Origin: Clostridia bacterium
GTDB lineage: Bacteria > Bacillota > Clostridia > Oscillospirales > Acutalibacteraceae
NCBI GenBank assembly: GCA_017550625.1
Contig: JAFZOL010000045.1
Span: 62,001 to 126,000, forward strand
Reading direction: 5' to 3'
DNA: 64,000 nucleotides
Shown here: positions 32,626-53,841 of the stretch, piece after piece
Layout: every line of letters begins with the position of its first letter
Numbering within the stretch: the stretch's first letter is position 1
Notes under the pieces: generated by a model
Told to the model about the DNA's origin: nothing
Databases searched by the model: none
Seen by the model: only the letters and a program-made list of their open reading frames with translations
Made by a program: the position numbers and the translations under genes

Positions 32626-33962
32626 TCAGGATCCCAACGAAAACACAGAAATTTGAAGCGGCGGACGGGCCGGTTTCCAATCCGTATATCGGGTTTACGA
32701 GCTTTCAGCGGTTCCGCCGGGACCCGCTGTTCGCCGACGTGGTCGTGCGCCCAGAAAACAACCGCACGGAGACCGAAGAGACCGAGTGCTATCCGGTGGC
32801 CGAAAAGGCCGTCCGGCACGGCGGCGGCGGGTATTATCCCGACACGAACGTGGCGTATATCCGTCTGTTGTGGAAGGATTTCGAGCCCCGGCGCGGCGAG
32901 TTCGACTGTGCGAAGATCGGGGACGTCCTTCAAAAGGCGCGAGAGAACGGCCAGACCGTGATGCTGCGCCTGATGCCGCATTCCACAAGAGCGTCCGACG
33001 ACGTGCCGGACTGGCTAAAAGCGATCATCCCGTGCCCCGCGCGGCCCGACGGACAGCGCGTGAAGGAGTCGCCCGCCGACCCCGTGTACCTTAAATACTT
33101 CGGCGAGGCAATCGAAGCCCTCGCCGAAAAGTTCGACCCCGATCCCACCCTCGACGCGATGGACATCTCCATCACCGGGGCGTGGGGCGAGGGCCACAGG
33201 TGCGACGCCTACCCCCGCGAGGCGCTCACGGCGCTCGCGGACGTCTACACGCGCTCGTTCCAAAACACCTGCCTCATCGGGCAGGCCGCCGCGCCGTGGC
33301 TGTCCGAATACGTAAGCAAAACGAAGCCCTGCGGCTGGCGGGGCGACGGCGTGGGCGAAGCCTACCACATGAACGTCAAATACCCCAAGGTCGCCGCCGC
33401 CCACCCCGACCTGTGGAAGACCGCCCCGGTCTCGTTCGAGTGCTTCTGGTGGCTCTGCGAATGGCGGCGGCAGGGCTGGGACCTCGACGAGATCATCGAA
33501 AAGACCCTCTCGTGGCACCTTTCCACCTTCAACGCCAAGAGCTTTCCGATCCCGGATGAATGGAGGCCGAAGATCGAAAACTGGATCGGCAGAATGGGCT
33601 ACCATTTCGTGCCGCGTCAATTTGATTATCCCGAAACCGCCGGCGCCGGGGACGTTCTGCGCTTCTCCCTGCGCGTCGAAAACCGCGGCGTCGCGCCGAT
33701 CTATCACAATATCCCGCTGCGCCTCAGGCTGAAAGCGGCAGACAAAGAATTTGTTTTTACGGCCGGCGTTGACATCCGCGCGTGGCTGCCGGGCGAACAT
33801 ACTCAAACGTTTGAAGTCCGACTGCCCGGCGACGTCCCCGCCGGGGAATACGCGCTCGGGCTTTCGGTCTCGGGCGAAACCGCCCCCGCCGTGGCGTGGG
33901 AAACCAAGGGCGAAACGGACGGCCTGTTCCTGACCGCCGGAATGCTGTCGATCGCCCGGTAA
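32622..33962 (+). CDS. DUF4832/DUF4874-like putative glycoside hydrolase
   Basis: A longer open frame upstream is the shifted reading of the GNAT gene. The correct start is the ATG at 32622, in an ATGA overlap. The 446-residue protein has SNPYIGFTSFQRF near the N-terminus (the NPxxGF motif of DUF4874). It also has TIM-barrel pieces (YIRLLWKDFEPRRGEFD; MDISITGAWGEGHRCDAY with Glu as a possible acid/base) and a C-terminal beta-sandwich (FSLRVENRGVAPIYHNIPLR). These proteins are predicted hydrolases of unknown substrate. There is no signal peptide. It is followed after 12 bases by a beta-propeller gene, which supports joint action on a glycan. Confidence 0.75.
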   Translation: MIRIPTKTQKFEAADGPVSNPYIGFTSFQRFRRDPLFADVVVRPENNRTETEETECYPVAEKAVRHGGGGYYPDTNVAYIRLLWKDFEPRRGEFDCAKIGDVLQKARENGQTVMLRLMPHSTRASDDVPDWLKAIIPCPARPDGQRVKESPADPVYLKYFGEAIEALAEKFDPDPTLDAMDISITGAWGEGHRCDAYPREALTALADVYTRSFQNTCLIGQAAAPWLSEYVSKTKPCGWRGDGVGEAYHMNVKYPKVAAAHPDLWKTAPVSFECFWWLCEWRRQGWDLDEIIEKTLSWHLSTFNAKSFPIPDEWRPKIENWIGRMGYHFVPRQFDYPETAGAGDVLRFSLRVENRGVAPIYHNIPLRLRLKAADKEFVFTAGVDIRAWLPGEHTQTFEVRLPGDVPAGEYALGLSVSGETAPAVAWETKGETDGLFLTAGMLSIAR

Positions 33963-40793: not shown

Positions 40794-40885
40794 GAAACAA
40801 TCCATCCGAACAATAAAAAATATCATACGGTGGGCAGTACGCCGTAAACGCAGCGGTCTATTCCCTTTTTGTAATGTTTAGTACC

Positions 40886-40914
40886 TTGCGCATATGAAAG
40901 CTTTCGGGTAAAAT
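40886..40914 (+). promoter_or_regulatory. Promoter of XRE-sigma4 module copy 1
   Basis: TTGCGC (40886-40891) and TAAAAT (40909-40914), 17-base spacer. The upstream in-frame ATG at 40913 lies inside the -10 box, so translation must start later. Confidence 0.7.
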
Positions 40915-40933
40915 GGAAGTGCAGCCGGAGGTG

Positions 40934-41401
40934 ATGAATTTCTTGCAGACCGGTCAAATAATACAAAAGCTGCGGATGGATGCGGAGCTGACACAGGAAC
41001 AGCTGGCAGACCAATTGTTTGTTTCAAGAGAATTGGTATCAAAATGGGAATTGGGGCAGCGCAGGCCCAATATACGGGAGCTGCGGGAAATGGCAAGCCT
41101 GTTCCGCGTCGGGATCGACGATCTGATCGATACGAACGGGCTGTGGGATGAGCTTGCCTCCTGTTTTCCTGCCGGGCGGCAATTGAGCGCGGCGCGTTTC
41201 TCCGCCCTGCTCGATCCGTTTCTCCGCACCTTATCCGAACGCGAACGCGGTGTTTTTATCCGACGCTATTACAGCCTGGAGGACGTGAGCGATATCAGTA
41301 CGGCATTTGATATCACAAACAATCACGTCCGCGTTATTCTGTCGAGAACACGCAAAAAGCTGAAAGAATACCTGAAAGGAGCAGCCAATGAACGGCAATG
41401 A
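40934..41401 (+). CDS. XRE helix-turn-helix fused to a sigma-70 region 4-like domain (module copy 1)
   Basis: The ATG at 40934 lies two bases after GGAGG. A TTG at 40943, aligned with the start of the copy at 48818, is also possible. The ATG at 40913 falls in the -10 box and is rejected. The 155-residue protein has an N-terminal XRE domain (LTQEQLADQLFVSRELVSKW) and a C-terminal region (LDPFLRTLSERERGVFIRRY, SDISTAFDITNNHVRVILSR) matching sigma region 4/LuxR-type HTH of ECF sigma factors. It has no region 2, so it cannot act as a full sigma factor. It overlaps the membrane-protein gene by 14 bases. The pair is very likely regulator and signal receiver. Confidence 0.82.
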   Translation: MNFLQTGQIIQKLRMDAELTQEQLADQLFVSRELVSKWELGQRRPNIRELREMASLFRVGIDDLIDTNGLWDELASCFPAGRQLSAARFSALLDPFLRTLSERERGVFIRRYYSLEDVSDISTAFDITNNHVRVILSRTRKKLKEYLKGAANERQ

Positions 41402-42485
41402 TTATATTCTGGCTTTTGCCGATATCCATGACGATCTGATCCGTGCGGCATCGGATGACGCGGCGGTGTGCAGGGCCTTCCGGCAATACAGAGCGCGCAG
41501 GAATAAAACGATCGGCGCGCTGTGCTGCTGTGCTGTCATCGCGATGGTCGCGGTTGGATTCGGTTTGAAAAACCGGTTCGGAAAACAGCCGTCGGTCGTT
41601 TCAAATGAACCAGCGGCAACGGATCGTTTGCCGACGGAGCCGGACGGAACCGAGCTGCCGGACCAACCCGGCGTGATCCCGCAGGAACAGACCTCGTCGA
41701 CGGTTGAAACGCCGTCTTCCGACGATACCGAACCGTTTGTCCCTGAGACGGAAACGCCGACGCAGGATACGCCTGTCCCGCAGGATGATGATTCCGTGAT
41801 TTGGGGAGATACGCACGGCACGTTGCCCAGCGCTTATGTTTTGTGGAACGGCAAACAGATCGATTACTATTTGTGGACAGTCCTGCAAAGTGATACCTCG
41901 GGCAAAGTGATCGCGATCGTTGCATCGCCGGCGATCGATTACCAATTCGTTTATGACGGCAAAACGATCGCCCGATATGAAGCGGAAGCTTATGAAGAGA
42001 GATTGCTTCCGGAAAAACTGCAGCGGCTTCTGAAAGAGGGCGAAACGTTAAAATACGGGGAAGATTTATATACGATCGGCACACCGGACGGAGAAAAATG
42101 GGCGAAGAGCCTGTATGAAGAAAAGATCGCTTATTACGGCGAGGAGCTTTTGTCGAGGTATATCGTCAACGGCGATTTTCTCTCAGATCGAGTCGCGGCG
42201 GATATCCCGCCTGCCGAGGCGGATACAAGCGCCAAAGACGCGTATGACAAAGCGATCGGGGCTTTTTATGCACAAACCGTTTCGTCCGCGGCTTCCGCGA
42301 TCTCCGCGGCGGGCCTGTCCTGTTCGGTCACCGAACGCGGCGCACTCCTGTTCTTTGCTTCGGCAGAGCGTTTCGTGAGTCTGACGGCTCCCGAAGATGC
42401 CGAATGGTATTATTCGCTTGCAGAGAAAGACGCGGACGGGACCGTGCCAACAAGGGAATGCTCAGATATGAGGGTGTCAGGTTGA
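41388..42485 (+). CDS. Single-pass membrane protein partnering XRE-sigma4 (module copy 1)
   Basis: The 365-residue protein has a short cytoplasmic segment (MNGNDYILAFADIHDDLIRA), a basic stop-transfer region, one TM helix (about 41-60) and a long Pro/Thr/Glu/Asp-rich stalk (about 68-135). An extracellular domain follows (LPSAYVLWNGKQIDYYLWTV; YQFVYDGKTIARYEAEAYEE; GDFLSDRVAADIPPAE). The N-terminal segment aligns with that of the protein at 49270 (MTGRDLLCAIAGIDDSIVLA), as in an anti-sigma-like tether. The ectodomain family is unknown to me. Translation is coupled to the regulator gene, and a terminator follows. Confidence 0.78.
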   Translation: MNGNDYILAFADIHDDLIRAASDDAAVCRAFRQYRARRNKTIGALCCCAVIAMVAVGFGLKNRFGKQPSVVSNEPAATDRLPTEPDGTELPDQPGVIPQEQTSSTVETPSSDDTEPFVPETETPTQDTPVPQDDDSVIWGDTHGTLPSAYVLWNGKQIDYYLWTVLQSDTSGKVIAIVASPAIDYQFVYDGKTIARYEAEAYEERLLPEKLQRLLKEGETLKYGEDLYTIGTPDGEKWAKSLYEEKIAYYGEELLSRYIVNGDFLSDRVAADIPPAEADTSAKDAYDKAIGAFYAQTVSSAASAISAAGLSCSVTERGALLFFASAERFVSLTAPEDAEWYYSLAEKDADGTVPTRECSDMRVSG

Positions 42486-42500
42486 TCCTGACAAGTCAAT

Positions 42501-42549
42501 AAGCGGTGCCGGTCTGAAGCGCACTTCAGACCGGCACTGTTTTTTTCTT
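42501..42549 (+). terminator. Terminator of module copy 1
   Basis: GTGCCGGTCTGAAG pairs with CTTCAGACCGGCAC, followed by TGTTTTTTTC. It is a long, nearly perfect stem. Confidence 0.88.
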
Positions 42550-42695
42550 TTCTGCGTATTTTATAAGTTGAAAAATCATCGCGTTTCAGGTATGATCATA
42601 ATATACAGAAAACATAAGCAAAAATGATTTATGGATATTCTGTTCCGTGCCGGTTTTGTATGCGACGATGCTGTTGTCGTACAAATCCCGGATGA

Positions 42696-42953
42696 TTGAA
42701 AGGTACAGAAAGTCTTTCTATGCGTCCGTCGAAGCAGCCGAAGATCATCGCCCCGAACCCCGACGGCACCTATACGATCCCGGCAGGCGAAGGCTACACG
42801 ATGGTCACGATCGTGGGCGCGTCGCAGAGCGACAGCGAGGGCTCACCCGCCGATGAAACGCCCGGCGCGAGCGCCGGCAAAACGAGCTTCTGGGATGCCC
42901 TCGCGGCGTTCTTCCAGAAGATTGCGAGCTTCTTCAGCAATCTGTTCAGATAA
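42696..42953 (+). pseudogene. Fragment of an exported protein with amphipathic C-terminal tail
   Basis: An open frame of 85 codons without signal peptide or clear ribosome binding site. Its content (PKIIAPNPDGTYTIPAGEGY, then TMVTIVGASQ, then an acidic Ser/Pro spacer) reads like the last part of a surface protein. It ends in FWDALAAFFQKIASFFSNLF and R, the same kind of tail as at 28849. I take it as the 3' remnant of a lost gene, left at the edge of the accessory region. A short independent gene is possible but less likely. GC content is high, unlike the neighbouring elements. Confidence 0.55.
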
Positions 42954-43198
42954 GCAGGGCCGCAGGGTGATCCCCGCCGTCCGCGCCGGTCCCCGAACGG
43001 GAACGGTGAGAACGGATCCATAAAAACAACAGTCTCCCGCAGCAGCGCAAGGCCTGCCGCGGGGGGCTTTGTTCTTGGCGGCGTCAGCCCCGCGGGGGGG
43101 GCTTTTGTTTTCCGTGTTCTGTGATCCGTTATTTTACAGGCGCCGCGCTTTCGGCTACAAGCGGCGGGCGACCTGTAGCTTTGGCTACATGTAAAGAG
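42954..43198. other. Intergenic stretch with GC-rich hairpins
   Basis: I see no gene here. Two GC-rich inverted repeats around 43025-43100 (GCCTGCCGCGGGGGGC; CAGCCCCGCGGGGGGGGCTT) precede T-rich ends and could act as terminators of the truncated gene upstream. Confidence 0.4.
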
Positions 43199-43219
43199 AG
43201 AATCGTCAACCTGCTCATT
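43199..43219 (-). repeat. Degenerate tRNA-Thr 3'-half fragment (att-like site Z)
   Basis: AGAATCGTCAACCTGCTCATT matches the tRNA-Thr fragment at 48475-48519 with six bases missing after AGAATCG. It is followed by the same style of sequence as the other sites: TTTTCAC, AAGGGATTTCGGGCATTTT, and TGGGCACAAAATGGGCAC near 43345. Confidence 0.5.
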
Positions 43220-43432
43220 CACACAGCTTTTCACAAATGCTCACAAATGGCTCTGTATAAGGGATTTCGGGCATTTTCGCCTCTTCACTTCACGGATGCA
43301 TGTTTGTGCCCACAAAAATACGCGGATTTACACACGTTTGGGCACAAAATGGGCACAGCTTGACACTTTTAAAAAACCGCTTTTTTACCCCGAAACGGCG
43401 CTCTTTTCCAACTGCTGTTTTCATGGAGTTTG

Positions 43433-43460
43433 GTAGAAAATACTATATAGTATTTTCTAC
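43433..43460. repeat. 28-base perfect palindrome
   Basis: GTAGAAAATACTAT is followed directly by its reverse complement, with no spacer (centre between 43446 and 43447). No gene covers it. It could be an operator, a cruciform-forming site or the remnant of a palindromic element. Confidence 0.75.
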
Positions 43461-43500
43461 GTTATGCCCCCCTTGGCGTTTCCATAAGAATAAGACATAG

Positions 43501-43546
43501 ATTTCGGCAGATTTTTAGAATTATAAAAAATCTGCCGATTTTTATG
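43501..43546 (+). terminator. Long inverted repeat, terminator-like
   Basis: CGGCAGATTTTT and AAAAATCTGCCG form a 12-pair stem around about 10 bases, followed by ATTTTTATG. It ends just before the -35 box of the ATPase gene. Confidence 0.65.
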
Positions 43547-43575
43547 TTGACTATTCGTTTGATTCGGGATATACT
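43547..43575 (+). promoter_or_regulatory. Promoter of the AAA_14/DUF4143 gene
   Basis: TTGACT (43547-43552) and TATACT (43570-43575), 17-base spacer. Confidence 0.75.
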
Positions 43576-43619
43576 GTAAATGTGTTATTGTTGAGAATCT
43601 TCGTTTATAGGTGGTGCGT

Positions 43620-44849
43620 ATGGAATATATCAACCGACATTTGGAGAATAAGATCCTTAATATCAGCAAATCGTTTTCGGCGATCCTGCTGACCGGGCCG
43701 CGGCAGTCCGGCAAAACGACTATGCTGCGGAGGTTGGCGGAAAAGGAGAACATCGGACGCAGCTATGTCACGCTGGACGATCTTGCCGAGCGGGATATGG
43801 CGAAGAACGATCCCAATATGTTCCTGCAGCTCCATAAGCCCCCGGTTCTGATCGATGAAGTTCAGTATGCGCCGGAGCTGTTCTCTTATATCAAGATCCA
43901 CATTGATACCTATCACAACCCCGGCGACTTCTGGATGACAGGCTCGCAGATCTTTCGTTTGATGCGCGGTGTGCAGGAATCGATGGCCGGGCGCGTTGCG
44001 CTGCTCCACATGTCGCCGCTGTCACAGCGGGAGATCCTCGGCGCGCCTTGCGTACCGTTTGACACCGATCTGGACCGCCTGATAGCGGAGAAAGATCAGA
44101 TTCCCGCCGTTACCGCACCGGATCTGTTCGCCCGCCTGTGGCAAGGTTCCATGCCCGGTCTCGTCAGCGGACAGTACCCGGACCGCAGTGTGTTTTATTC
44201 CTCCTATCTCTCCACCTGCGTGGAGCGCGATGTTCGTGAGCTCTCCGGCAACGTAGACGCGCTGAAGTTCAACCGTTTCGTCACCGCCGCCGCCGCCCGC
44301 TGTTCACAACTGCTGAATTACAACGCCCTTGCCGAGGATGCCGATATCGACATACAGACCTCCAAGGCATGGATCAACATTCTGGAAACGCTGGGAATCA
44401 TCTTCCTGCTGCATCCCTATTCAAATAATGTGCTGAAGCGCACCATCAAAACGCCGAAGCTGTATTTTTACGACACAGGACTCGTTTGTTACCTGACCAG
44501 ATGGTCTTCGCCGGAGGTTGCGGAAATCGGCGCCATGAGCGGTGCTCTGCTCGAAAACTACGCTGTTTCGGAAATCATGAAAAGCTACCAGAACGCGGGA
44601 CGAGAGCCATTCATCTGCTTTTACCGTGACCGTGACGCTAAAGAGATCGATGTGATCCTTGAGCGTGACGGACAGTTGCACCCACTGGAAATCAAAAAGG
44701 CTTCCTTGCCGGAAAAACGTATCACCCGCGTTTTCGGTGTCATTGACAGAGGCCCCTTGCAGCGCGGTACCGGCGCTGTCCTCTGCATGGCTGACCATTT
44801 CAGCGCATTTGACCGTGATAACTTGATCATACCGATTTGGATGATATAG
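43620..44849 (+). CDS. AAA_14 + DUF4143 ATPase
   Basis: The ATG at 43620 lies five bases after AGGTGG. Upstream GTG codons are less suitable. The 409-residue protein has Walker A GPRQSGKTT (near residue 28), Walker B VLIDEVQYAPEL (near 80) and sensor-like FWMTGSQIF. The DUF4143 helical-nuclease-like C-terminal part follows (ALLENYAVSEIMKSY; YRDRDAKEIDVILERDGQLH with a PD-(D/E)xK-like DxxE/K; LEIKKA). This is a very common family of unknown role, often in accessory DNA. The next gene overlaps its end only if its upstream start is used. It begins the segment between att-like sites Z and A. Confidence 0.85.
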   Translation: MEYINRHLENKILNISKSFSAILLTGPRQSGKTTMLRRLAEKENIGRSYVTLDDLAERDMAKNDPNMFLQLHKPPVLIDEVQYAPELFSYIKIHIDTYHNPGDFWMTGSQIFRLMRGVQESMAGRVALLHMSPLSQREILGAPCVPFDTDLDRLIAEKDQIPAVTAPDLFARLWQGSMPGLVSGQYPDRSVFYSSYLSTCVERDVRELSGNVDALKFNRFVTAAAARCSQLLNYNALAEDADIDIQTSKAWINILETLGIIFLLHPYSNNVLKRTIKTPKLYFYDTGLVCYLTRWSSPEVAEIGAMSGALLENYAVSEIMKSYQNAGREPFICFYRDRDAKEIDVILERDGQLHPLEIKKASLPEKRITRVFGVIDRGPLQRGTGAVLCMADHFSAFDRDNLIIPIWMI

Positions 44850-44893
44850 AATTTATAATTAAGGATCTTAAACGAAAGGAACGCAGTCGTCTT

Positions 44894-47650
44894 ATGGGAA
44901 GAAGAAAAAAACATATGCTTTTTACGGCCGTTATTCTTATCCTGTTATCGCTTTCTGCGTGCGGCAAAGAAATGTCCGTGACGTATTTCACAACGGACGA
45001 CGTCCGGGAGGCCTACGGAGAAGCGGTCGCCGCGATCAACGAATACGTCGATTACGGTTTTGCCGAGGTACAGGAAAAACCCCTTGCAGACGTTTCCTTT
45101 GACGATATTGACAGTCTTGATGGACTGAATTCGGAAAGTATCAGTCTGTCGGACGCGTCCGGCGCTCAGTTGGTCACGGGCCGCTTCGGGCTGCGTCACG
45201 CGCTGGAGCTTACGTCACCCGATACTTATCTCTCGCTGCCCGATATGGGAGAACAGGACGCGCTGACGATCTCTATGTGGGTCAACGTCCGCGATCTGCA
45301 AACAAGAGAGAACGTGGACGAACCGCGCGTCAGCACGCTGCTGGATACCAAAGCCGGCGAGGGGCGCGTTTCGCTCAAATTCGTGCATACCGGCACGCCG
45401 TCTTATACGGATCCCGAAAGCGGCGAGGCCGTGATGGGCACCAACAGCACGAGGCTTGTGCTCGCCGTCGAAGGCAACGGCGGCGGCCAGTATGCGGAAA
45501 ACGCGGTCTGCGCGAACAACACGCAGTTTTGCAATTTCGAGTATACCCTATGGGAAGATTTCGTGGGCGTGCAGGACGACTGGGTCGTTCACCCGGAGGG
45601 ACACTGCTGGTTCCATATCGGCGTCGTTTACGAGCCGGATAAGGGCGACGTGACCTTTTACCATTGCGGCAAATTCGATTCCACGAAGCATTTTGAAACG
45701 GCTGTGAAGCCCGTGCTGGACGGCGTGCGCATCGGCGCCGGCTATAATGAAAACGACTTTTTTGACGGCATGGTGGACGATATCCGCATCTACGGGCAGG
45801 CGCTCACGCAGGCGGATATGGATATCCTCGCGGATTACGAGCGGGATATGTGGGTCAACCGCACCAAAACCGATTGGGAAGAAAGCAAGACCGTGCTTTA
45901 CGTCAACGGCGCGACCGGCAGCGACGAAAACCCCGGCACAAGAGAAGCACCCTTCGCCACCGTCAAAAAGGGCGTGGGATCCATTGATTCTCCCGGCACA
46001 AGGCTGATCATCGCTCCCGGTGTCTATCACGAAACGGGCGTCGACCTGAACGCGGGCGGCTCGGAATTGCAGCCCGTGATCATCGAAGCGCAGGAGCCCG
46101 GCAAAACCGTGATCACCGGCGCCGTTCCCTTTGACGGGTGGAGAAAGACAGAAGAACCGAACGTATATGAAAACGACTGGAGTTATGATTATCCTTTCCG
46201 CTCCGGCACGCCCGGCAACGAGATCATCGGCAGAAGCGATCTTCTGATCGTTGACGGTAAACCGATCGAGCCCGTCCTCACGCGGGAGGAGCTGAAAAAC
46301 AGCGCTTATTATATCGACGAGGCGGCAGGTATAATCTACCTGAAAACAGAAAAAGATCCCGCAGAGTGCGCGATCGAGCGGGCGACGCCCGGTGAAAACG
46401 GCGCGGGCGCATATATTCTTAATACGAACAGCAGCGATTACGTTGTCCTGCGCGGGCTGACCTTTACGGGCTGCGCCTCTCTTATTTGGGACAGATGCAT
46501 GGTACACATGGGAAAACCGCAGCACGTTCTGGTGGAGGACTGTGTATTCAACAATTCCGGCACCGGCGGGTTGGGTTTTGACCATGGCTCCAACGACAGA
46601 ACGGTCGAGGACGTGCTCATCCGCCGCTGTTCCTTTGACAACGACGGTACCGGCGGTATCAGCGCGGGCTTCCGGAGCATGAATTTTGTGGTGGAGGACT
46701 GCGAATTTACCAACGTCGGCAAAAAGATCGACTGGGGCAAATATGATTCTCCCGACCCCGCCACGACGAAAATGATGGTCAGCAAGAATATCACCTGGCG
46801 CGGATGCTATTTTGCCCACAACATCTCGAACGATCTGTGGTTTGACAATTTCAACTGGAACATCGACGTGGACAACTGCAGCTTTTACGATAACGATTCG
46901 GGCATTGCGGTCCACATTGAGATAGATATACCGGGCGTCCGCGTCAGAAACAGCGTGCTGGACGGCGGCATCCGCTTCGCAAGCGCCGAGGGCGCCATCC
47001 TTGACAATAACGTCATTTTTGCCAAAGGCAATCCGGTGATAGACCACTGGGGACCCGAATACCGGTTCGGAACCCTTGGCCCCGTCTATTCCTGGAAAAA
47101 TACGGTTATGACGAACAACACCTTCTATTGCGAAAAAGATTGGGGCTCATTCTTCATTTTCGATCTGCCTCCTCACGCATCCTTCTATGATATGTACGCC
47201 GACGGCAACCGCTTCTTTGTCAAGGGGGGCTTAGCCGTCGAAAAATCTTACAAAGCGATAGAGAATAAAGAGCTCACCTATAGTAAGTTTATCTCCCTGA
47301 TCGGAGATAAAAACGCAAAATACCTGTGGAGAGATCCGTTTAAAAACGATGGAACGATAACGGTTGGTTTTGCAGATCAGGCGTCCGTCTCAAACGGCTG
47401 CGGCGCCGGTAACCGCGTGCCGATAGAACTGTCAAGGCCCATGAATGAAGCATGCACCGTGTATTATACCGTTTGGGATTACGACGCAGGTAAGATTTTG
47501 CGGACCGGAGAGCTGTGTTTTGAGCGGTTCGAAACCCGCAAAACGATCTATGTCGGTGAATATGACCGCAACGTTCTGATCGAGCTGAGCGGCGTACAAA
47601 ATATCATCCGCGGTGAAACGTATTATCACTTCCGCGCAAGCGCGATTTAA
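44894..47650 (+). CDS. Lipoprotein with LamG domain and right-handed parallel beta-helix
   Basis: The ATG at 44894 is used. An in-frame ATG at 44837 would overlap the ATPase gene and bury the signal peptide. A GAAAGGA lies 13 bases upstream, which is long. The 918-residue protein has a lipoprotein signal (LLSLSACGK), a LamG-like sandwich (about 80-280: DALTISMWVNVRDLQ; DDIRIYGQALTQADMDIL) and a beta-helix with the opening LYVNGATGSDENPGTREAPF. Turn repeats follow (VVLRGLTFTGC; VLVEDCVFNNSGTGG; FVVEDCEFTN; RVRNSVLDGGI). A C-terminal beta-domain closes it. Such proteins bind or cleave polysaccharides at the cell surface. Catalytic residues are not evident. Confidence 0.8.
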   Translation: MGRRKKHMLFTAVILILLSLSACGKEMSVTYFTTDDVREAYGEAVAAINEYVDYGFAEVQEKPLADVSFDDIDSLDGLNSESISLSDASGAQLVTGRFGLRHALELTSPDTYLSLPDMGEQDALTISMWVNVRDLQTRENVDEPRVSTLLDTKAGEGRVSLKFVHTGTPSYTDPESGEAVMGTNSTRLVLAVEGNGGGQYAENAVCANNTQFCNFEYTLWEDFVGVQDDWVVHPEGHCWFHIGVVYEPDKGDVTFYHCGKFDSTKHFETAVKPVLDGVRIGAGYNENDFFDGMVDDIRIYGQALTQADMDILADYERDMWVNRTKTDWEESKTVLYVNGATGSDENPGTREAPFATVKKGVGSIDSPGTRLIIAPGVYHETGVDLNAGGSELQPVIIEAQEPGKTVITGAVPFDGWRKTEEPNVYENDWSYDYPFRSGTPGNEIIGRSDLLIVDGKPIEPVLTREELKNSAYYIDEAAGIIYLKTEKDPAECAIERATPGENGAGAYILNTNSSDYVVLRGLTFTGCASLIWDRCMVHMGKPQHVLVEDCVFNNSGTGGLGFDHGSNDRTVEDVLIRRCSFDNDGTGGISAGFRSMNFVVEDCEFTNVGKKIDWGKYDSPDPATTKMMVSKNITWRGCYFAHNISNDLWFDNFNWNIDVDNCSFYDNDSGIAVHIEIDIPGVRVRNSVLDGGIRFASAEGAILDNNVIFAKGNPVIDHWGPEYRFGTLGPVYSWKNTVMTNNTFYCEKDWGSFFIFDLPPHASFYDMYADGNRFFVKGGLAVEKSYKAIENKELTYSKFISLIGDKNAKYLWRDPFKNDGTITVGFADQASVSNGCGAGNRVPIELSRPMNEACTVYYTVWDYDAGKILRTGELCFERFETRKTIYVGEYDRNVLIELSGVQNIIRGETYYHFRASAI

Positions 47651-47945
47651 GAAACTAAAGAGAGCGGAATCGTGAGTTAAATGAACAACATCCGCGACAG
47701 CGCCACGGAGACCGGGATCTTGTTTTTGCTTGATGCTTTCGGCAACAGCAAAAGAAGCTTGGAGTCACGCTTTTAGGGGCTGAGAAGCCTTGAAAAATAA
47801 GGGCTTTCAGAGCCGATTTCAGGGAGGAGCATATAAGTATATTCCCGAAATCGTTTTTTCTCCGGAATCGGCTCTGTACAAGGGTTTATAGCTTTTTGAA
47901 AAGCGTTACCAAGACGTTTGCCTGTTTCTGAAACGGAGGAAAACG
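47651..47945. other. Intergenic stretch with a weak 31-codon frame and an inverted repeat
   Basis: A 31-codon frame at 47681-47776 has no ribosome binding site and is not called as a gene. Around 47810-47875, CAGAGCCGATTTC and GAATCGGCTCTG can pair over a long loop. I see nothing else. Confidence 0.35.
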
Positions 47946-48059
47946 ATGTTTGAAAAAGAAGTCGAAAAACGGAGTTATTCTTCATCTTTATTAAGTATCG
48001 CGAAAAGACTGGATTTCCTAATCAACAGGCGGGACGAGACCGAAGAATCATCCGGATAG
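47946..48059 (+). CDS. Possible 37-residue small protein
   Basis: The ATG follows CGGAGGAAAACG, a good ribosome binding site at seven bases. The product is MFEKEVEKRSYSSSLLSIAK followed by RLDFLINRRDETEESSG, a charged helical peptide without a signal. An imperfect hairpin rich in GAAGGCAGAAAG/CTTCTGTCTTC and a T-run follow at 48072-48117. I recognise no family. Support comes only from the ribosome binding site and the terminator-like end. Confidence 0.4.
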   Translation: MFEKEVEKRSYSSSLLSIAKRLDFLINRRDETEESSG

Positions 48060-48261
48060 GTAAAAAAACGGAGAAGGCAGAAAGAAATCTTCTGTCTTCT
48101 TCGGGCTTTTTTTCGTTTATATCGGTCTATAAAAAGGAGGGCTTTTCCGTGCGTTTGCTTCAACAAAATCCGGGCAATTTCGGACACGTAAAAATTTTAC
48201 TGGGCATAAAAATGGGCACAAACGCGTTTTCCGGTCGATTTCCGGCCTTTTTCAGCAAGGC

Positions 48262-48326
48262 ATAAAAAAGCCGCAACCCCTTGATATACAAGGGATTGCG
48301 GGGGTGGAGCTGGTGGTCAGAATCGA
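48262..48326 (-). repeat. tRNA-Thr 3' fragment with terminator (att-like site A)
   Basis: Read leftward, TCGATTCTGACCACCAGCTC and CA (48326-48305) is the T-loop-to-CCA end of tRNA-Thr(CGU). It is followed by a hairpin CCGCAATCCCTTG/CAAGGGGTTGCGG and six T. The copy is broken at the T-loop. GTTGTCAGTTCGATTCT recurs in opposite orientation at about 48409-48425, suggesting a rearranged junction. Confidence 0.7.
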
Positions 48327-48446
48327 GCCGCTTTGGCGCTTCGCGCCGCGCGGCAGAGATTGAAAAACGCCTCGGTTTTCCGCCTTCGCGGAAAAACCGA
48401 GATGCGAAGTTGTCAGTTCGATTCTTCCGGATCACAGAAAAAGACG

Positions 48447-48519
48447 GGATGACCAAAAGGCCATCCCGTCTTTCTGGAGCTGGTGGTCAGAATCGAACTG
48501 ACAACCTGCTCATTACGAA
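48447..48519 (-). repeat. tRNA-Thr(CGU) 3' half with terminator (att-like site B)
   Basis: Read leftward, positions 48519-48475 contain an anticodon loop TTCGTAA (anticodon CGU), the stem TGAGC, variable loop AGGTT, T arm GTCAG-TTCGATT-CTGAC, acceptor CACCAGC, discriminator T and encoded CCA. No 5' half precedes it. A terminator GACGGGATGGCC/GGTCATCCCGTC follows. The 45 bases are identical to site D at 53797-53841. Confidence 0.85.
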
Positions 48520-48765
48520 CACTTACTTGGCAGTTTTCACGGATCAATACATCTTCACACAAGGCCAAAAAAATGCGATGGTATCAAGGTTTTTTCGCCC
48601 TTTTATGTTTTCACAGATTAACACAGATTAACGCAAGAAAAGAAAAAAAGGGGTGCAAAATTTTTGGAGACTGTCATTTTTATTTTCTCCAAAAAACATC
48701 AGTTGCTCTACTCCGAAAGTCAAGTCGTCAACCCCGATCCCTCAAATGTGGTTACGTTCTTTCCC
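48520..48765. other. Att-adjacent non-coding stretch
   Basis: No gene is called. It contains TTTTCACGGAT, CACAGATTAACACAGATTAAC and one GGGGTGCAAA (48650 region), the same short motifs found beside sites C and D. They may be recombinase arm sites. Confidence 0.45.
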
Positions 48766-48794
48766 TTGAACGCAAAAAAAACCTACATTATAAT
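48766..48794 (+). promoter_or_regulatory. Promoter of XRE-sigma4 module copy 2
   Basis: TTGAAC (48766-48771) and TATAAT (48789-48794), 17-base spacer with an A-tract, 24 bases before the ATG. Confidence 0.78.
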
Positions 48795-48817
48795 ATACTT
48801 GCAACAGGAGGTGTCGC

Positions 48818-49273
48818 ATGTTGAAGACCGGTCAAACAATTGCAGCACTTCGGACAAAAGCAAATATGACGCAGGAACAATTGGCGGCGAGATTATTTGT
48901 CTCTCGTGACCTCGTTTCCAAATGGGAAACAGGCAAAAGTCCTCCGAACTATAGAATGATTCTGAAACTGGCAGAACTGTTTTCTGTCGGGGTCGATACG
49001 TTATTCGATAAGGATCAAATCCTTACGGATGAGCTCTCAACATGCATTCCGACAGGGGATAATATTGATTCGGAGAGTTTGAGAGAGGCGGTAAATACCT
49101 TTTTGTATTCCTTATCGGAGCGGGACAGGTTTATTTTTGTCCGAAGGTATTATTTCTTTGAGGATGCTTCTGAAATCAGCGCTGAATATGGTGTGAGCGA
49201 GGGACATGTCCGAACGATACTGATGCGAACCAGAAAAAAACTGAAAAAATATCTGAAAGGAGCATTATCATGA
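48818..49273 (+). CDS. XRE helix-turn-helix fused to a sigma-70 region 4-like domain (module copy 2)
   Basis: AGGAGG lies six bases before the ATG. The 151-residue protein is a paralogue of the one at 40934: KTGQTIAALRTKANMTQEQL and FVSRDLVSKWETGKSPPNY form the XRE domain, then a linker with TDELSTCIPTGDN follows. The C-terminal sigma4-like part is LYSLSERDRFIFVRRYYFFE plus ISAEYGVSEGHVRTILMRTR. There is no sigma region 2. Its stop codon overlaps the start of the membrane-protein gene (ATGA). Whether it binds RNA polymerase, DNA or both cannot be told from sequence. Confidence 0.83.
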   Translation: MLKTGQTIAALRTKANMTQEQLAARLFVSRDLVSKWETGKSPPNYRMILKLAELFSVGVDTLFDKDQILTDELSTCIPTGDNIDSESLREAVNTFLYSLSERDRFIFVRRYYFFEDASEISAEYGVSEGHVRTILMRTRKKLKKYLKGALS

Positions 49274-50259
49274 CCGGCAGGGATTTGTTATGCGCAATTG
49301 CGGGGATCGACGACAGTATTGTGTTGGCGTCGGGACAGTTTTCCGCGGTTGAATCAAGCATAAAGACTGATCGAAAAAAAATACGGCACCGCTTTACTGC
49401 AATCGGTATTGCCGTTGTAATTTGTATTGCGGTTTTCGGTGCGGTGAAGTTTATGCCGAAAAACCTTCCTCTGTTCACGCCATCCGGCACGACAGAGTTG
49501 CAAACGCCTGGCGTACATGACCCGTCTGAATCTGGTGATATCTCGGTGCTTCCAGATCCCGGTACAACTACGGAAGAAGAGATTGGCACCACCCCGTCCG
49601 GAGAACGGGATCCCAATTCTGTGAAAGAAACCGAAGTGCCTTCATCAATCACTGGGAATAATTCACAAACTTCACCGACAAGCAATTCGGATCAGCTTGA
49701 AACACAAATGCCGCCGACCGAAACACCGACCACGGCAACCAATCATGAAACTCCAACAGCCCCTTCGGATGTTCCCTCGTCGGCTGAGCAGTCTGTCGCC
49801 CCCTCAACCGTAGCAACGACGACCGTTGATATTCCGGACGCGCCAAGGGAGGTTTATCAGGACATCATCGTTGATTATGCGACGGCAAGAGAAAAATTCG
49901 GTTACCCGATCAAATCATGCGGAAGAAGTAATTTTACCAATTACAGGGCAGTTATCGTCTGTATGGACGGAGATATCAACGCAAGCGGGGCGTATTGCGC
50001 TTGGGTGACTTATGTTTTTACAAATGGATCCATTGATCTTCGTGATCAGAACAGAATGGCAGATGGGATTACCCCCACGGGAAATGCTTATGAATATCAA
50101 GGCAGGACTTTTTATGTGCACCTTCCTGAGTTTAACGGTGATCGGGTTCGTGTTGAGTATTTCCCAACCGGGAAAAGCGGCATCGCGTATCAAGCATTTT
50201 TTGACAGACAAGCAGACGTCAATGAGATTATGGATTTGATATTGTCCATCGAAATATAA
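49270..50259 (+). CDS. Single-pass membrane protein partnering XRE-sigma4 (module copy 2)
   Basis: The 329-residue protein has the conserved cytoplasmic start MTGRDLLCAIAGIDDSIVLA, one TM helix (about 42-60), a Thr/Ser/Pro/Glu-rich stalk (about 70-195) and a small C-terminal domain. That domain (VYQDIIVDYATAREKFGYPI; NYRAVIVCMDGDINASGAYC; VRVEYFPTGKSGIAYQAFFD) differs from that of the copy-1 partner. The unit thus keeps its inside and varies its outside. It shares a transcript with the regulator gene. A remnant of a third regulator follows directly. Confidence 0.78.
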   Translation: MTGRDLLCAIAGIDDSIVLASGQFSAVESSIKTDRKKIRHRFTAIGIAVVICIAVFGAVKFMPKNLPLFTPSGTTELQTPGVHDPSESGDISVLPDPGTTTEEEIGTTPSGERDPNSVKETEVPSSITGNNSQTSPTSNSDQLETQMPPTETPTTATNHETPTAPSDVPSSAEQSVAPSTVATTTVDIPDAPREVYQDIIVDYATAREKFGYPIKSCGRSNFTNYRAVIVCMDGDINASGAYCAWVTYVFTNGSIDLRDQNRMADGITPTGNAYEYQGRTFYVHLPEFNGDRVRVEYFPTGKSGIAYQAFFDRQADVNEIMDLILSIEI

Positions 50260-50280
50260 TACGTTTGCTGAAAAAGGATC

Positions 50281-50529
50281 CTTGATCCGTTCCTCCGCAC
50301 GTTATCCGAACGCGAACGCAATGTTTTTATTCATCGTTACTTCAGTTTGGAGGACATGAATGAAATCAGCGAGGCGTTTGATATCACAGTAAATCACGTC
50401 CGCGTCATATTGACGAGAACACGCAAAAAGCTGATCTATCTTCCGTTTTGGATTATATCATACCCATACAGGAAGCAAACGGGGAAGAATAATGCTTTGA
50501 TTATTCCGAGAGCGATAACAAAATGCTAA
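50281..50529 (+). pseudogene. Remnant of a third XRE-sigma4 regulator
   Basis: From 50281 the frame reads LDPFLRTLSERERNVFIHRY followed by FSLEDMNEISEAFDITVNHV and RVILTRTRKKL. This is close to the C-terminal half of the copy-1 regulator (LDPFLRTLSERERGVFIRRY) and more similar to it than to copy 2. The XRE half is missing. After KKL the frame continues into an unrelated tail and stops at 50529. It is a decayed copy, joined at its right edge to a carboxypeptidase fragment. Confidence 0.8.
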
Positions 50530-50545
50530 TCCCTTAATCATTGTA
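50526..50545. repeat. 20-base direct repeat, left copy
   Basis: CTAATCCCTTAATCATTGTA is repeated perfectly at 53349-53368, bracketing 2.8 kb that holds the carboxypeptidase fragment, a lipoprotein gene and a membrane-protein gene. Confidence 0.8.
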
Positions 50546-51035
50546 TTGTATTGCGGTAAACGTGGCGCGATCTCTCTATCCGGGGATTTCAGATAAAGAA
50601 GCCGTAAACAAATTTGTGGGGCTTATGAATCAGACTGCCGATGCCATCGGAATGCAAAACAGCCATTTTCTGAATCCGGACGGTTATGACGCGGACGGCC
50701 AATATTCTACCGCGGAGGATCTTCTTCTGCTTGCAAAAACGGCGCTGGAGTACTCCGCGATCAGAACGATATGCGGGAAGTATCGAATTGAGGCATATCT
50801 TGCTAATGGAAAAGGCGTGACTTGGTACAATACGAACAGAATGTTGAATCCGAACGATGCGTTTTATCATTCTGCGGTTACCGGTCTGAAAACCGGCAGC
50901 ACAGCCGCCGCTGGAAATTGTATCATCGTATCGTTTAACCATGCCGGAAGAGAAATGATCGCGGTGATCCTTGGCGCTGCTTCCGACGAGGAAAGATACA
51001 AATCCGTCGAGGAATTGATAAACGCTTTACCGTAA
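50541..51035 (+). pseudogene. C-terminal fragment of an S11 D-Ala-D-Ala carboxypeptidase
   Basis: The frame reads FVGLMNQTADAIGMQNSHFL, NPDGYDADGQYSTAEDLLLL and, near the end, HSAVTGLKTGSTAAAGNCII. These are the S11 helix, the NPxGY turn and the KTG box. The SxxK nucleophile and the SxN motif are absent because the N-terminal half is gone. The break coincides with the 20-base repeat. It was probably the extracellular domain of a third module partner or a stand-alone carboxypeptidase. An inverted-repeat terminator follows at about 51050-51080. Confidence 0.78.
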
Positions 51036-51048
51036 CCAATATACCTTA

Positions 51049-51083
51049 AGCAAAGCGGACTCCTTGCGGGGGCCGCTTTGTTA
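51049..51083 (+). terminator. Terminator after the carboxypeptidase fragment
   Basis: AAAGCGGACTCC/GGGGGCCGCTTT pair imperfectly, followed by GTTACTG. It is similar in sequence to the terminator at 53257-53284 (CGGACTCCTTGCGGGG in both). Confidence 0.6.
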
Positions 51084-51284
51084 CTGTACCAAATGAAACT
51101 CCATAAAACGCTTTCCTTGACTTTTCATCTTTGATTGAATATACTGAAAACAGCATGATTCCATAGAAACATTCAATAATCCGGGATGTGTTTTTTCGTG
51201 GATTAAACTATTTTTTTTCCGGCGGGTCCGGTATTTCGCAACAATAGCCGCTTGAAAAGAGTCTTATATAAAGAGGTGATTTAC

Positions 51285-52217
51285 TTGACCGTAAAGAAAA
51301 CGCTGTTTATCGTAGCCATTTGTTTGTTTTTGATAATGACCGGATGTACCGCTCCGAAAACGGACAATAACGAAACCGGGAATACCATGTTGAATCCGCA
51401 AAAGATTGTTTCCATGGTATCGGTGTCTTCTCTGCCGGAAGGATATCAGTATTCTTTTTCGACGGAGGATGCCATAGAAACAATAACCAGTTATATAAAT
51501 TCCCTTGAACTCACAAGTGATTATTCTGAAAACCCGGATGAGTACGCCGGAATGACATGGGTTGTGGAAATCCTATTCGATGACGGCAGCAAACAGAGCA
51601 TTTATCACTTCGGGAATATGTTTATAAAGGATGAAAACGGGCCGTGGTTTAAGATGCAATATAAACAGGCAAGCCGGTTCGATTCTGTACTAGAGGAAGC
51701 TGCGGCATTGCAGTCGACTGGCGTTTCAGACAAAACAGAACCGCATTTGATAGAGACAAAAACAGCATATGCAAACTGGTCAGAGGATGAAACGATCTAT
51801 AAAGATTGTTTGAACCGGGATAAGGTCTCGTCCGCTGCACGCGGTCATTTCCCTGTATATCTGATGGATACAAAAGCGGATCTGGAGAGTTTTAAGACCA
51901 CACTTGGTGACATTCTCTTGATGGATCAGGGATGTGACGAGACACCTTCTTTCAATGAGATTGTCAAATCGTATGATGATTCCTTCTTCTCTGAACGCGC
52001 GTTGATTATCGTATATGTAACCTCCTCAAGCGGATCGTTCCGGTTTGACGTGCGTGATGTTACTGTTGAAGACGCTGTTTTCTGTCTGAACGTCATTCAA
52101 ACGAATCATCCGGAAGTGTATACCTGTGATATGGCCGGTTGGTATATTGTTGTTGAGGTCATGGATTCTGACATCTCAGATATAAAGGATTATGACGCGG
52201 TGTTGGTTCAATCATAA
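51285..52217 (+). CDS. Lipoprotein of unknown function
   Basis: A TTG start at 51285 is chosen. AAGAGGTG lies seven bases before it, and the protein then begins with a proper lipoprotein signal (TVKKTLFIVAICLFLIMTGC). A TTG at 51252 has no ribosome binding site. The 310-residue product is acidic and has two globular parts. One is near 60-130 (SFSTEDAIETITSYINSLEL; WVVEILFDDGSKQSIYHFGN). The other is near 190-310 (HFPVYLMDTKADLESFKTTL; RALIIVYVTSSSGSFRFDVR; GWYIVVEVMDSDI). I recognise no family for either. It is followed 44 bases later by a membrane-protein gene. Confidence 0.72.
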   Translation: MTVKKTLFIVAICLFLIMTGCTAPKTDNNETGNTMLNPQKIVSMVSVSSLPEGYQYSFSTEDAIETITSYINSLELTSDYSENPDEYAGMTWVVEILFDDGSKQSIYHFGNMFIKDENGPWFKMQYKQASRFDSVLEEAAALQSTGVSDKTEPHLIETKTAYANWSEDETIYKDCLNRDKVSSAARGHFPVYLMDTKADLESFKTTLGDILLMDQGCDETPSFNEIVKSYDDSFFSERALIIVYVTSSSGSFRFDVRDVTVEDAVFCLNVIQTNHPEVYTCDMAGWYIVVEVMDSDISDIKDYDAVLVQS

Positions 52218-52261
52218 TTACCAGGATTATTCTGGGAACAGGAGATACAGGAGGTGCAGTC

Positions 52262-53233
52262 ATGAAAAACAATCTCCTTACAAAGTTTTACATTGGTATG
52301 CTCGCAGGTATAGTTGTCACCACGGCGTACCCCATCTATATGGGTATCTCCCTTCTCGTCCACATGCTGCGGGACGGCGCGATCCCGATAGAAGCGTATC
52401 CGAAATATGTGATCCCGTATACCCCCATCGCGTTGGCGTTGATCGTCGGCGCACTCCTGGTGCCGCTGTTTCAGAAGCTGACGGAAAAGAAAGCGCTGCT
52501 TCCCGGCGCGGCCGTTTCCGTTGCGGTGTTCTTTCTGACAGAACGTTTTATGGAAACAAGGATCCTTGTGCAGACGCAGGAGCTTGTGCCGCTGGAAAGC
52601 TGGCAGATGTCGCTTTGTTACGTGCCGCCGGAAATGTATGAAACGCGTACGTGGGAGGCGGTGGACGTGCTACTCGGCGGTTACAGTCCCGCTTTTAAAC
52701 TGCATTTCTATCTGATTTCCGTTATTATCATTTTATCTCTTCTGAACTGTATTTACGGTTATGCAAAGATGATCCGAACCGGGGATAAAAGCAGAAAAAA
52801 AGCGCTGATCATACAGACCGTAACAAGCCTGTCTTTTCTCGGTATGTGCATCTGGGCATGCTTTACGGCGTTTTATCGGACGGGAGAAATCATGGTATCC
52901 GCCGTTTCCGCTGTACTGATGACCGTATTCTTTGTTCTTCTCGGCGTCACCACCGGCGTCTTTCTTGCTTCCTTTACGCTGAAAAAACGCAGATTTCTTT
53001 CCGTAACGCTTCCGGCGATCCTTGCCGCCGCAACCACCCTTGCCATGTATATCGGCGAGATGATTCTGCTCAGCGGCAACCTCTACCGGTTCGGATCCGG
53101 CGTGTTCTTTAACGGCATGGGCAAATTGGTCCTTGCTCCGGTGGATTTATACGTCATAATCGCTTCCGGAGGTATTACTTTACTCATAGCCTCAGCGCTT
53201 AAACGGAATCCGCAGCGCGCGCATAAAAGTTGA
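52262..53233 (+). CDS. Multi-pass membrane protein of unknown function
   Basis: The ribosome binding site ACAGGAGGTG lies five bases before the ATG. The 323-residue protein has about 7-8 hydrophobic segments (for example residues 9-32, 55-72, 80-96, 148-168 and 185-300). One extracellular loop of about 55 residues follows the third segment (RILVQTQELVPLESWQMSLC; YVPPEMYETRTWEAV). It has no transporter motif or catalytic pattern that I know. It forms a two-gene unit with the upstream lipoprotein gene and ends at a terminator. The pair lies inside the segment bracketed by the 20-base repeats. Confidence 0.7.
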   Translation: MKNNLLTKFYIGMLAGIVVTTAYPIYMGISLLVHMLRDGAIPIEAYPKYVIPYTPIALALIVGALLVPLFQKLTEKKALLPGAAVSVAVFFLTERFMETRILVQTQELVPLESWQMSLCYVPPEMYETRTWEAVDVLLGGYSPAFKLHFYLISVIIILSLLNCIYGYAKMIRTGDKSRKKALIIQTVTSLSFLGMCIWACFTAFYRTGEIMVSAVSAVLMTVFFVLLGVTTGVFLASFTLKKRRFLSVTLPAILAAATTLAMYIGEMILLSGNLYRFGSGVFFNGMGKLVLAPVDLYVIIASGGITLLIASALKRNPQRAHKS

Positions 53234-53256
53234 GATCGATAGAAAACAATTTTCAA

Positions 53257-53284
53257 TTCGGACTCCTTGCGGGGTCCGTTTTTT
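53257..53284 (+). terminator. Terminator of the lipoprotein/membrane-protein unit
   Basis: CGGACTCC pairs with GGGGTCCG around CTTGC, followed by TTTTTTG. Confidence 0.8.
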
Positions 53285-53348
53285 GATGTTACGTTCTGTC
53301 CATTGTGCCATATGGTGAGGTTTTGAATCCCGAGAACAATATAAAACA

Positions 53349-53368
53349 CTAATCCCTTAATCATTGTA
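53349..53368. repeat. 20-base direct repeat, right copy
   Basis: CTAATCCCTTAATCATTGTA is identical to 50526-50545. The five bases before each copy are also similar (AAATG and AAACA). Confidence 0.8.
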
Positions 53369-53414
53369 AAAGAGCTCGTTTTCTTGTGGAGAACGAGTTC
53401 TTTTATGTCATAAA

Positions 53415-53443
53415 GGGGTGCAAAGGGGTGCAAAGGGGTGCAA
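53415..53443. repeat. Tandem GGGGTGCAAA repeats beside site C
   Basis: Three copies of GGGGTGCAAA (the last without its final A) in direct tandem with a 10-base period, about one helical turn. They lie about 50 bases from the terminator of site C. Confidence 0.85.
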
Positions 53444-53485
53444 GTTGTTTTTTTTTCAGTGAAAATAGCCTTTTCTGCGTTATTC

Positions 53486-53571
53486 ATAAAAAGCCGGAAA
53501 CCCTTACTTTACAAGGGTTTCCGGGATGGAGCTGATGTTCAGAATCGAACTGACGACCAACTCATTATGAG
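53486..53571 (-). repeat. tRNA-Met(CAU) 3' half with terminator (att-like site C)
   Basis: Read leftward, positions 53571-53527 give an anticodon loop CTCATAA (CAU), stem TGAGT, variable TGGTC, T arm GTCAG-TTCGATT-CTGAA, acceptor CATCAGC, T and CCA. The 5' half is absent. A terminator CCGGAAACCCTTG/TAAGGGTTTCCGG and a T-run follow. It is related to sites A, B and D, but comes from a different tRNA. Confidence 0.78.
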
Positions 53572-53756: not shown

Positions 53757-53841
53757 AAAAAAGCCGAAAACCCTTGCTACACAAGGGTTTTCGGAATGGA
53801 GCTGGTGGTCAGAATCGAACTGACAACCTGCTCATTACGAA
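53757..53841 (-). repeat. tRNA-Thr(CGU) 3' half with terminator (att-like site D)
   Basis: Positions 53841-53797, read leftward, are identical to site B over 45 bases: from the anticodon loop TTCGTAA to the encoded CCA. A terminator CCGAAAACCCTTG/CAAGGGTTTTCGG with six T follows. No 5' half precedes it, so this is not a working tRNA gene. Sites B and D bracket 48520-53796. Confidence 0.87.

Follow-up and report, generated by a model that had tools for sequence, protein, structure and literature searches.

What can a regulator do with sigma-70 region 4 if it has no region 2? The question is raised by a 64,000-nucleotide stretch of DNA from a Clostridia bacterium (assembly GCA_017550625.1, contig JAFZOL010000045.1, positions 62,001 to 126,000, forward strand; hereafter the window), which holds two complete copies of a two-gene module. 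In each, a regulator made of an XRE helix-turn-helix (HTH) joined to sigma region 4 is followed by a gene for a protein with a single transmembrane segment (TM). From the sequence analyses below, we read the module, with a probability of about 0.6, as a membrane switch akin to the pairs formed by extracytoplasmic function (ECF) sigma factors and their membrane partners, in which an XRE-region 4 activator would work on the housekeeping polymerase and be restrained at the membrane. The four genes are:

40934..41401, + strand: regulator 1, XRE HTH, linker and sigma region 4, likelier start TTG 40943 (Pfam; AlphaFold2 (AF2) model)
41388..42485, + strand: partner 1, N-terminal motif, TM, Pro/Thr/Glu stalk and an ectodomain without a relative among the 93 compared (open reading frame (ORF); BLAST clusters)
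48818..49273, + strand: regulator 2, XRE HTH, linker and sigma region 4 (Pfam)
49270..50259, + strand: partner 2, N-terminal motif, TM, stalk and an ectodomain common to four other loci, L101, L102, L103 and L104 (BLAST clusters)

Regulator and membrane partner

Both window regulators share one architecture: an XRE HTH, which Pfam places in the N-terminal ~65 residues, then a linker and sigma-70 region 4. HTH_3 and Sigma70_r4 scored above their gathering scores in copy 1 (2.2e-12 and 1.1e-12) and copy 2 (2.3e-13 and 7.5e-13), and no Pfam model of sigma region 2 matched either protein at E up to 1. The regulators thus carry the HTH_3 domain of XRE regulators and the region 4, but not the region 2, of ECF (group IV) sigma factors. 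The TIGR02937 (sigma70-ECF) model also exceeded its cut-off, over residues 80-147 of regulator 1 (1.6e-14) and 79-146 of regulator 2 (1.1e-15); the two proteins are 53% identical. For copy 1, the sequence GGAGGTG at 40927-40933 abuts ATG 40934 with zero spacer and lies 9 nt before TTG 40943, and because of this Shine-Dalgarno spacing TTG 40943 is probably the true start.

An AF2 model of regulator 1 (58-row alignment; predicted local distance difference test (pLDDT) 87.6, predicted TM-score 0.64) gave the same division. Residues 2-68 resemble XRE repressors in structure comparison, residues 81-152 match region 4 of sigmaE in its RseA complex, and residues 83-154 match sigmaL. Foldseek returned one match at E up to 0.001, the XRE repressor Stl in its dUTPase complex, and more weakly 3hug, sigmaL region 4 with RslA (2.0 Å over 68 columns, E 0.031). 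Profile and fold, the latter with this weaker Foldseek match, agree that the C-terminal part is sigma region 4. Among the structure matches listed, no solved chain closely matched both halves, and those spanning them did so only loosely; a sequence profile searched against solved chains matched one half per chain among the best 60 of 77 matches.

The regulator and partner genes overlap by 14 bases in copy 1 and by 4 in copy 2, so that Pfam and coordinates bear out the original prediction of XRE-region 4 regulators, devoid of region 2, that overlap a single-TM gene. The pairing is not random in homologous loci either. A single-TM protein is encoded next in 93 of the 96 regulator loci with at least 100 nt downstream; five further regulators, at contig ends, were left out of this count. 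A script found 91 of these partners and two were added by eye, that of L235 (97 residues, under the script cut-off) and that of L294 (TM masked by N, N-terminus in common with L295). The three exceptions are L258, with no partner, L238, a truncated regulator near its intact paralogue L229, and L289, which is decayed. An overlap of exactly 4 bases occurs in 49 of the 91 script-found pairs, and such short overlaps suggest co-translation. We also considered L289 as a natural regulator-partner fusion and rejected it, its frame entering a partner-like motif and then stopping in what looks like decay; in a MAFFT alignment the partner fragments shown fell on the last region 4 helix, not on the tail.

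As had been noticed for the two window partners, they are alike only in an N-terminal motif (M-x-G-x-D...A-x-A-x-I-x-D) and in the position of the TM, near residues 41-43, with little in common beyond. Across the family, 93 ectodomains (near-copies included) fell into 37 BLAST clusters, one of which spans both regulator subfamilies, main-type and subfamily 2, and this supports the earlier idea of exchangeable sensors. A Pfam scan of 83 of 94 partners found VWA_4 in five, serpin in three and Big_5 in two, with single alpha-2-macroglobulin and cyclophilin-like cases. Judged by these domains, sensors of the serpin, von Willebrand A or alpha-2-macroglobulin kind may respond to proteases or surfaces. 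The serpin-like ectodomains, at L164, L168 and L279, come from three different families; we assigned these loci through what we take to be the serpin signature pattern. No anti-sigma domain was found in the two window partners (Pfam, E up to 1) or among the 18 families listed for the 83 partners (Pfam, 0.001). A structure model of partner 2 had a mean pLDDT of 40.1 (5-row alignment) and was not used.

The family is real but patchy. The window genome (80 contigs, 97.5% complete) gave 17 matches, namely the two copies, a remnant described below and 14 single-domain matches. In searches with a profile built from nine regulators, strong matches (E at most 1e-30) were separated by a gap from single-domain ones (at least 7e-23 in the family search, at least 4e-23 in the order search) and, counting the window's own genome, occurred in 8 of 398 genomes of the family, 9 of 394 of the order and 4 of 291 of the class; at the level of the phylum, 1 of 398 genomes had one, the window's own. 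In a second order of the class, 14 of 31 genomes had a match at a cut-off of 1e-28, the gap to single-domain matches being established only for the family and order searches. All these counts are lower bounds, as for most genomes in the large searches no more than 9 to 13 candidates were scored. Counting truncated ORFs and the two in the window, the catalogue holds 101 distinct regulator ORFs; 96 are full-length and 84 remain at 80% identity. Copy numbers (cut-off 1e-28) reach 13 in G1018 (one truncated), 8 in G1056, 7 in G896 and 6 in G470; the genomes with such G-number handles belong to two orders of one class. The named full-length relatives come from metagenome-assembled genomes of Ruminococcaceae, Clostridia and Ruminococcus flavefaciens, several from goat rumen or omasum.

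Relation to ECF sigma factors

The linker and region 4 of 16 distinct ECF sigma factors match the regulator profile, and for nearly all of them the next protein bears the N-terminal motif of the module partners. These ECFs were picked for their resemblance to the profile and are not a survey. We scored partner N-termini with a matrix trained on the 65 main-type XRE-module partners only. With leave-one-out, 62 of the 65 reached at least 15.6, as did 14 of 15 ECF partners (the remaining one scored -1.7), while 0 of 43 genes after XRE-only genes was recognised (maximum -4.2). Two of the 65 modules, L252 and L275, scored -17.6, probably from a wrong start picked by the script. We used the XRE-only control in place of the 99% level of 1465 ORFs, because ECF partners and alternative starts of the partners themselves contaminate that level, which only 45 of 65 modules and 1 of 15 ECF partners exceed.

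Homology with the ECF sigmas starts in the linker (E-L-x-x-C-I-P), which therefore places the swap point between region 2 and the linker. Because partner motif, linker and region 4 are all common to ECF pairs, the module looks like a pair of the ECF sigma/anti-sigma type in which region 2 was swapped for an XRE head. Compared with clostridial ECF pairs, the modules have the same linker and region 4, short overlap and partner motif, but an XRE HTH for region 2, a TATAAT and not a CGTC-like -10, and a -35 unlike TGTAAC. As with the RseA, RslA and RsiW anti-sigmas, the gene directly behind the sigma-like one encodes a membrane protein; the partners scanned differ in having only a short cytoplasmic motif of ~25 residues and no Pfam anti-sigma domain.

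A tree of linker and region 4 (90 columns) is compatible with a single swap or several. Five XRE-region 4 regulators (L256, L257, L259, L280 and L234) were placed among the ECF rows, and some of their upstream regions have a clearer inverted repeat, GTGACA...TGTCAC. This group is possibly a second, independent swap of region 2. We do not claim two independent losses of region 2, as a single clade was not rejected (approximately unbiased test, p 0.296).

Promoter, candidate targets and proposed mechanism

Upstream of the first 34 modules we found a conserved promoter, new here: TGCGWTTTGTMCCTTKAC, a gap of 17-18 nt and TATAAT, the gap being 17 or 18 in 30 of the 34. These 34 include four near-duplicate pairs. 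With a leave-one-out position weight matrix (PWM), 30 of the 34 beat the best of 1020 shuffles (14.0), L023, L025, L161 and L159 failing. In the window the elements are:

40873..40890, + strand: operator and -35 region of copy 1, AATGTTTAGTACCTTGCG (leave-one-out PWM 15.3; shuffle maximum 14.0)
40909..40914, + strand: -10 element of copy 1, TAAAAT, 5 of 6 (matrix; read from sequence)
48753..48770, + strand: operator and -35 region of copy 2, TACGTTCTTTCCCTTGAA (leave-one-out PWM 19.5; shuffle maximum 14.0)
48789..48794, + strand: -10 element of copy 2, TATAAT, 6 of 6 (matrix; read from sequence)

Applied unchanged to 67 later modules, the same matrix scored 32 above the 99% shuffle level; when redundancy was removed and training members were kept, 50 of 61 main-type representatives and 2 of 23 of subfamily 2 passed. 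The 16 ECF relatives scored at most 9.7, and of 142 XRE-only upstream regions the top one, at 23.3, was L137, a module truncated where its contig ends, followed by one at 13.9. Subfamily 2 has an element of its own, about AACnTTTTGTGRCAAAA followed by TATAAT and mostly lacking a TTGACA-like -35 (16 of 20 promoters match at 3 or fewer of 6), and some ECF relatives have TGTAAC and CGTC-type elements instead (by eye). Over 71 sites, the arms were 53% complementary about the best symmetry axis and 24.5% across all axes, and the operator therefore reads as an imperfect inverted repeat centred near -43; a purely asymmetric operator was dropped after this result. The palindrome is weak, with 0 to 5 of 5 pairs per site and pairing near the independent-column expectation. 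Its axis lies 31 bp before the -10 hexamer, or at about -43 if the hexamer starts at -12, close to the -42 of class II activators. At L301 (G1018:C24), an intact regulator lies near a truncated copy, and three near-identical operators at contig positions 33451, 36329 and 40461 suggest a recent tandem duplication.

A pattern search allowing up to 3 mismatches found 44 sites in 17 module genomes, where the reversed pattern found 5; in three further genomes the counts were 12 and 0. Many of these sites are the modules themselves, and some with three mismatches are likely chance. Outside modules, we counted as strong, in the loci examined, the sites scoring at least 16.8 whose -10 matches at no fewer than 4 of 6 positions, L137 excluded. 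Nine of these 14 have an ORF led by a ribosome-binding site (RBS) within 200 nt, and 8 of the 9 ORFs, L087 being the exception, start like exported proteins or lipoproteins (by eye, no signal-peptide program). The candidate targets of L190 and L267 are homologous, though from different orders; a trypsin-like protein adjoining module L248 is a further candidate, and in the window genome a weaker site (14.9) lies upstream of a secreted DUF5060/apiosidase-like protein.

In the mechanism that we propose, the XRE head would bind the inverted repeat ~43 bp upstream of the start, a class II activator position, and so bring region 4 to lie above the -35 and the polymerase. The housekeeping sigma would open the TATAAT -10, since the regulator has no melting domain, and the regulator would switch on the operon that encodes it as well as a few exported-protein genes. 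With its short cytoplasmic N-terminus, the partner would dock on the linker/region 4 half, because the partner motif and this half of the regulator are both common to ECF pairs; docking would tether the regulator to the membrane, to be released once the ectodomain detects something. The original prediction that the membrane segment holds the regulator until a signal comes is better grounded now that the motif is found on ECF partners too; the binding itself we infer.

XRE proteins are often autorepressors, and the module regulator could be one: its XRE head would occlude its own -35, with region 4 as a second DNA-reading head and the partner relieving repression. This would fit the operator's abutting a usable -35 in main-type promoters. 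Most subfamily-2 promoters, however, have no TTGACA-like -35 to occlude, and the distance from site to -10 is nearly fixed. Four features lead us to favour activation with the housekeeping polymerase over repression: the operator lies at a class II position, its spacing is nearly constant, the -10 is TATAAT, and most subfamily-2 promoters lack the -35. Autorepression we consider unlikely. Regulators of the lambda cI and P22 c2 type share the XRE fold and an operator centred near -43 beside the -35, but the module regulator carries its own region 4 and has a membrane partner; lambda cI contacts the polymerase's own region 4. A regulator without region 2 might instead bind core RNA polymerase together with a separate region-2 protein, as in Bacillus subtilis, where, in the passages of PMC8103513 consulted, SigO and RsoA carry region 4 and region 2 on different proteins. 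The modules share with that system a region 4 apart from region 2 and differ in the XRE head and membrane partner. No region-2-only gene stands out in the window genome, the one genome searched for it (20 region 2 matches, in frames of at least 172 residues, none in the window), which lowers the odds of a split sigma; moreover, in 93 of 96 loci it is the membrane partner that follows the regulator, and the -10 is TATAAT, not the CGTC type of several ECF relatives (by eye), so that we regard this arrangement as quite improbable. The partner, finally, could be a co-activator or localiser of the ToxR/ToxS kind and not an inhibitor. Sequence leaves the sign of its effect free, the short overlaps suggesting only co-translation, but its N-terminus matches ECF partners, which by analogy would be anti-sigmas, and a helping role seems rather unlikely.

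Several results weigh against the restrained activator. The main motif leaves 35 of the 67 later modules below the 99% level, and the main-type -35 should serve the housekeeping sigma fairly well, with 4 or 5 of the 6 TTGACA positions matched in 54 of 71 cases, which would suit a repressor too. Only 7 of the 25 partners outside the matrix training set reach 15.6 and 18 exceed -4.2, scores from which we take the motif to have drifted in these partners, mostly of subfamily 2. Covariation over 90 partner-regulator pairs (0.331 against 0.171 on permutation) seems to follow the subfamilies, and within the 65 main pairs the top value was 0.226, only slightly above the 0.211 of 60 permutations. Five of the 14 strong sites (L160 at 4474, L191, L192, L204 and L261) have no RBS-led ORF by the criteria above, and the genes for exported proteins that the motif precedes are candidate targets only. 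Of the top 40 covarying pairs, 28 fall in the linker or region 4, which make up 85 of the 148 columns; this leans towards docking on that half but is too weak to count, and the co-occurrence of linker and partner motif (61/10/2/18) follows the subfamily split and was rejected as independent evidence.

Genomic surroundings and meaning

A third regulator had been predicted to survive as a remnant beside a carboxypeptidase fragment, and both are found downstream of copy 2:

50281..50442, + strand: remnant of a third regulator, region 4 only (Pfam, 2.2e-9; 78% identical to copy 1)
50541..51035, + strand: D-Ala-D-Ala carboxypeptidase fragment, C-terminal half (Pfam, Peptidase_S11 profile positions 120-238 of 239)

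The carboxypeptidase fragment is probably debris outside the module. G+C is ~43-50% across 47000-53500, compared with ~60-65% over the bulk of the initial 40 kb; further low stretches lie at 11-14 kb and 57-64 kb. That copy 2 and the remnants lie in a low-GC, debris-rich stretch suggests foreign or decaying DNA. An operator-like site at 53290-53307, TACGTTCTGTCCATTGTG, scores 17.2 with no -10 at the right distance and may be the trace of a lost module; the repeat ctaatcccttaatcattgta adjoins it and recurs near 50525. Another repeated element, agctg-tg-tcagaatcgaactgac, occurs at 48480-48520, 53530-53565 and 53800-53840, with short tandem copies of ggggtgcaaa nearby. It resembles the reverse complement of a tRNA T-arm, and ARAGORN found no tRNA.

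To the original prediction the analysis adds a conserved promoter, a relationship to ECF sigmas, candidate targets and the likely use of a housekeeping -10. A literature search, mainly of titles and abstract openings with passages of PMC8103513, PMC8999054 and PMC1524751, brought up no description of an XRE-region 4 fusion with a membrane partner. The parts are of known kinds, and their combination with a promoter of its own is new as far as this search reaches. We tentatively suggest, at somewhat less than even odds, a new class of switch, in which an XRE head of the phage-repressor type would dock at promoters that have a housekeeping -10 and supply the housekeeping polymerase with the region 4 it carries, a chromosomal regulator's version of sigma appropriation, under the gate of a membrane sensor, and which some lineages have multiplied to as many as 13 copies with differing sensors and matching operators.

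The module amounts to a domain swap made by nature, and it hints at the half of an ECF sigma that the membrane partner recognises and at a possible use of sigma region 4 without region 2. Because most modules carry their own readable promoter, a regulator can be matched by sequence with its operator, sensor and candidate targets, which makes the supply of region 4 in trans to the housekeeping polymerase testable. The modules could also serve as parts with which external signals are coupled to genes in gut Clostridia.

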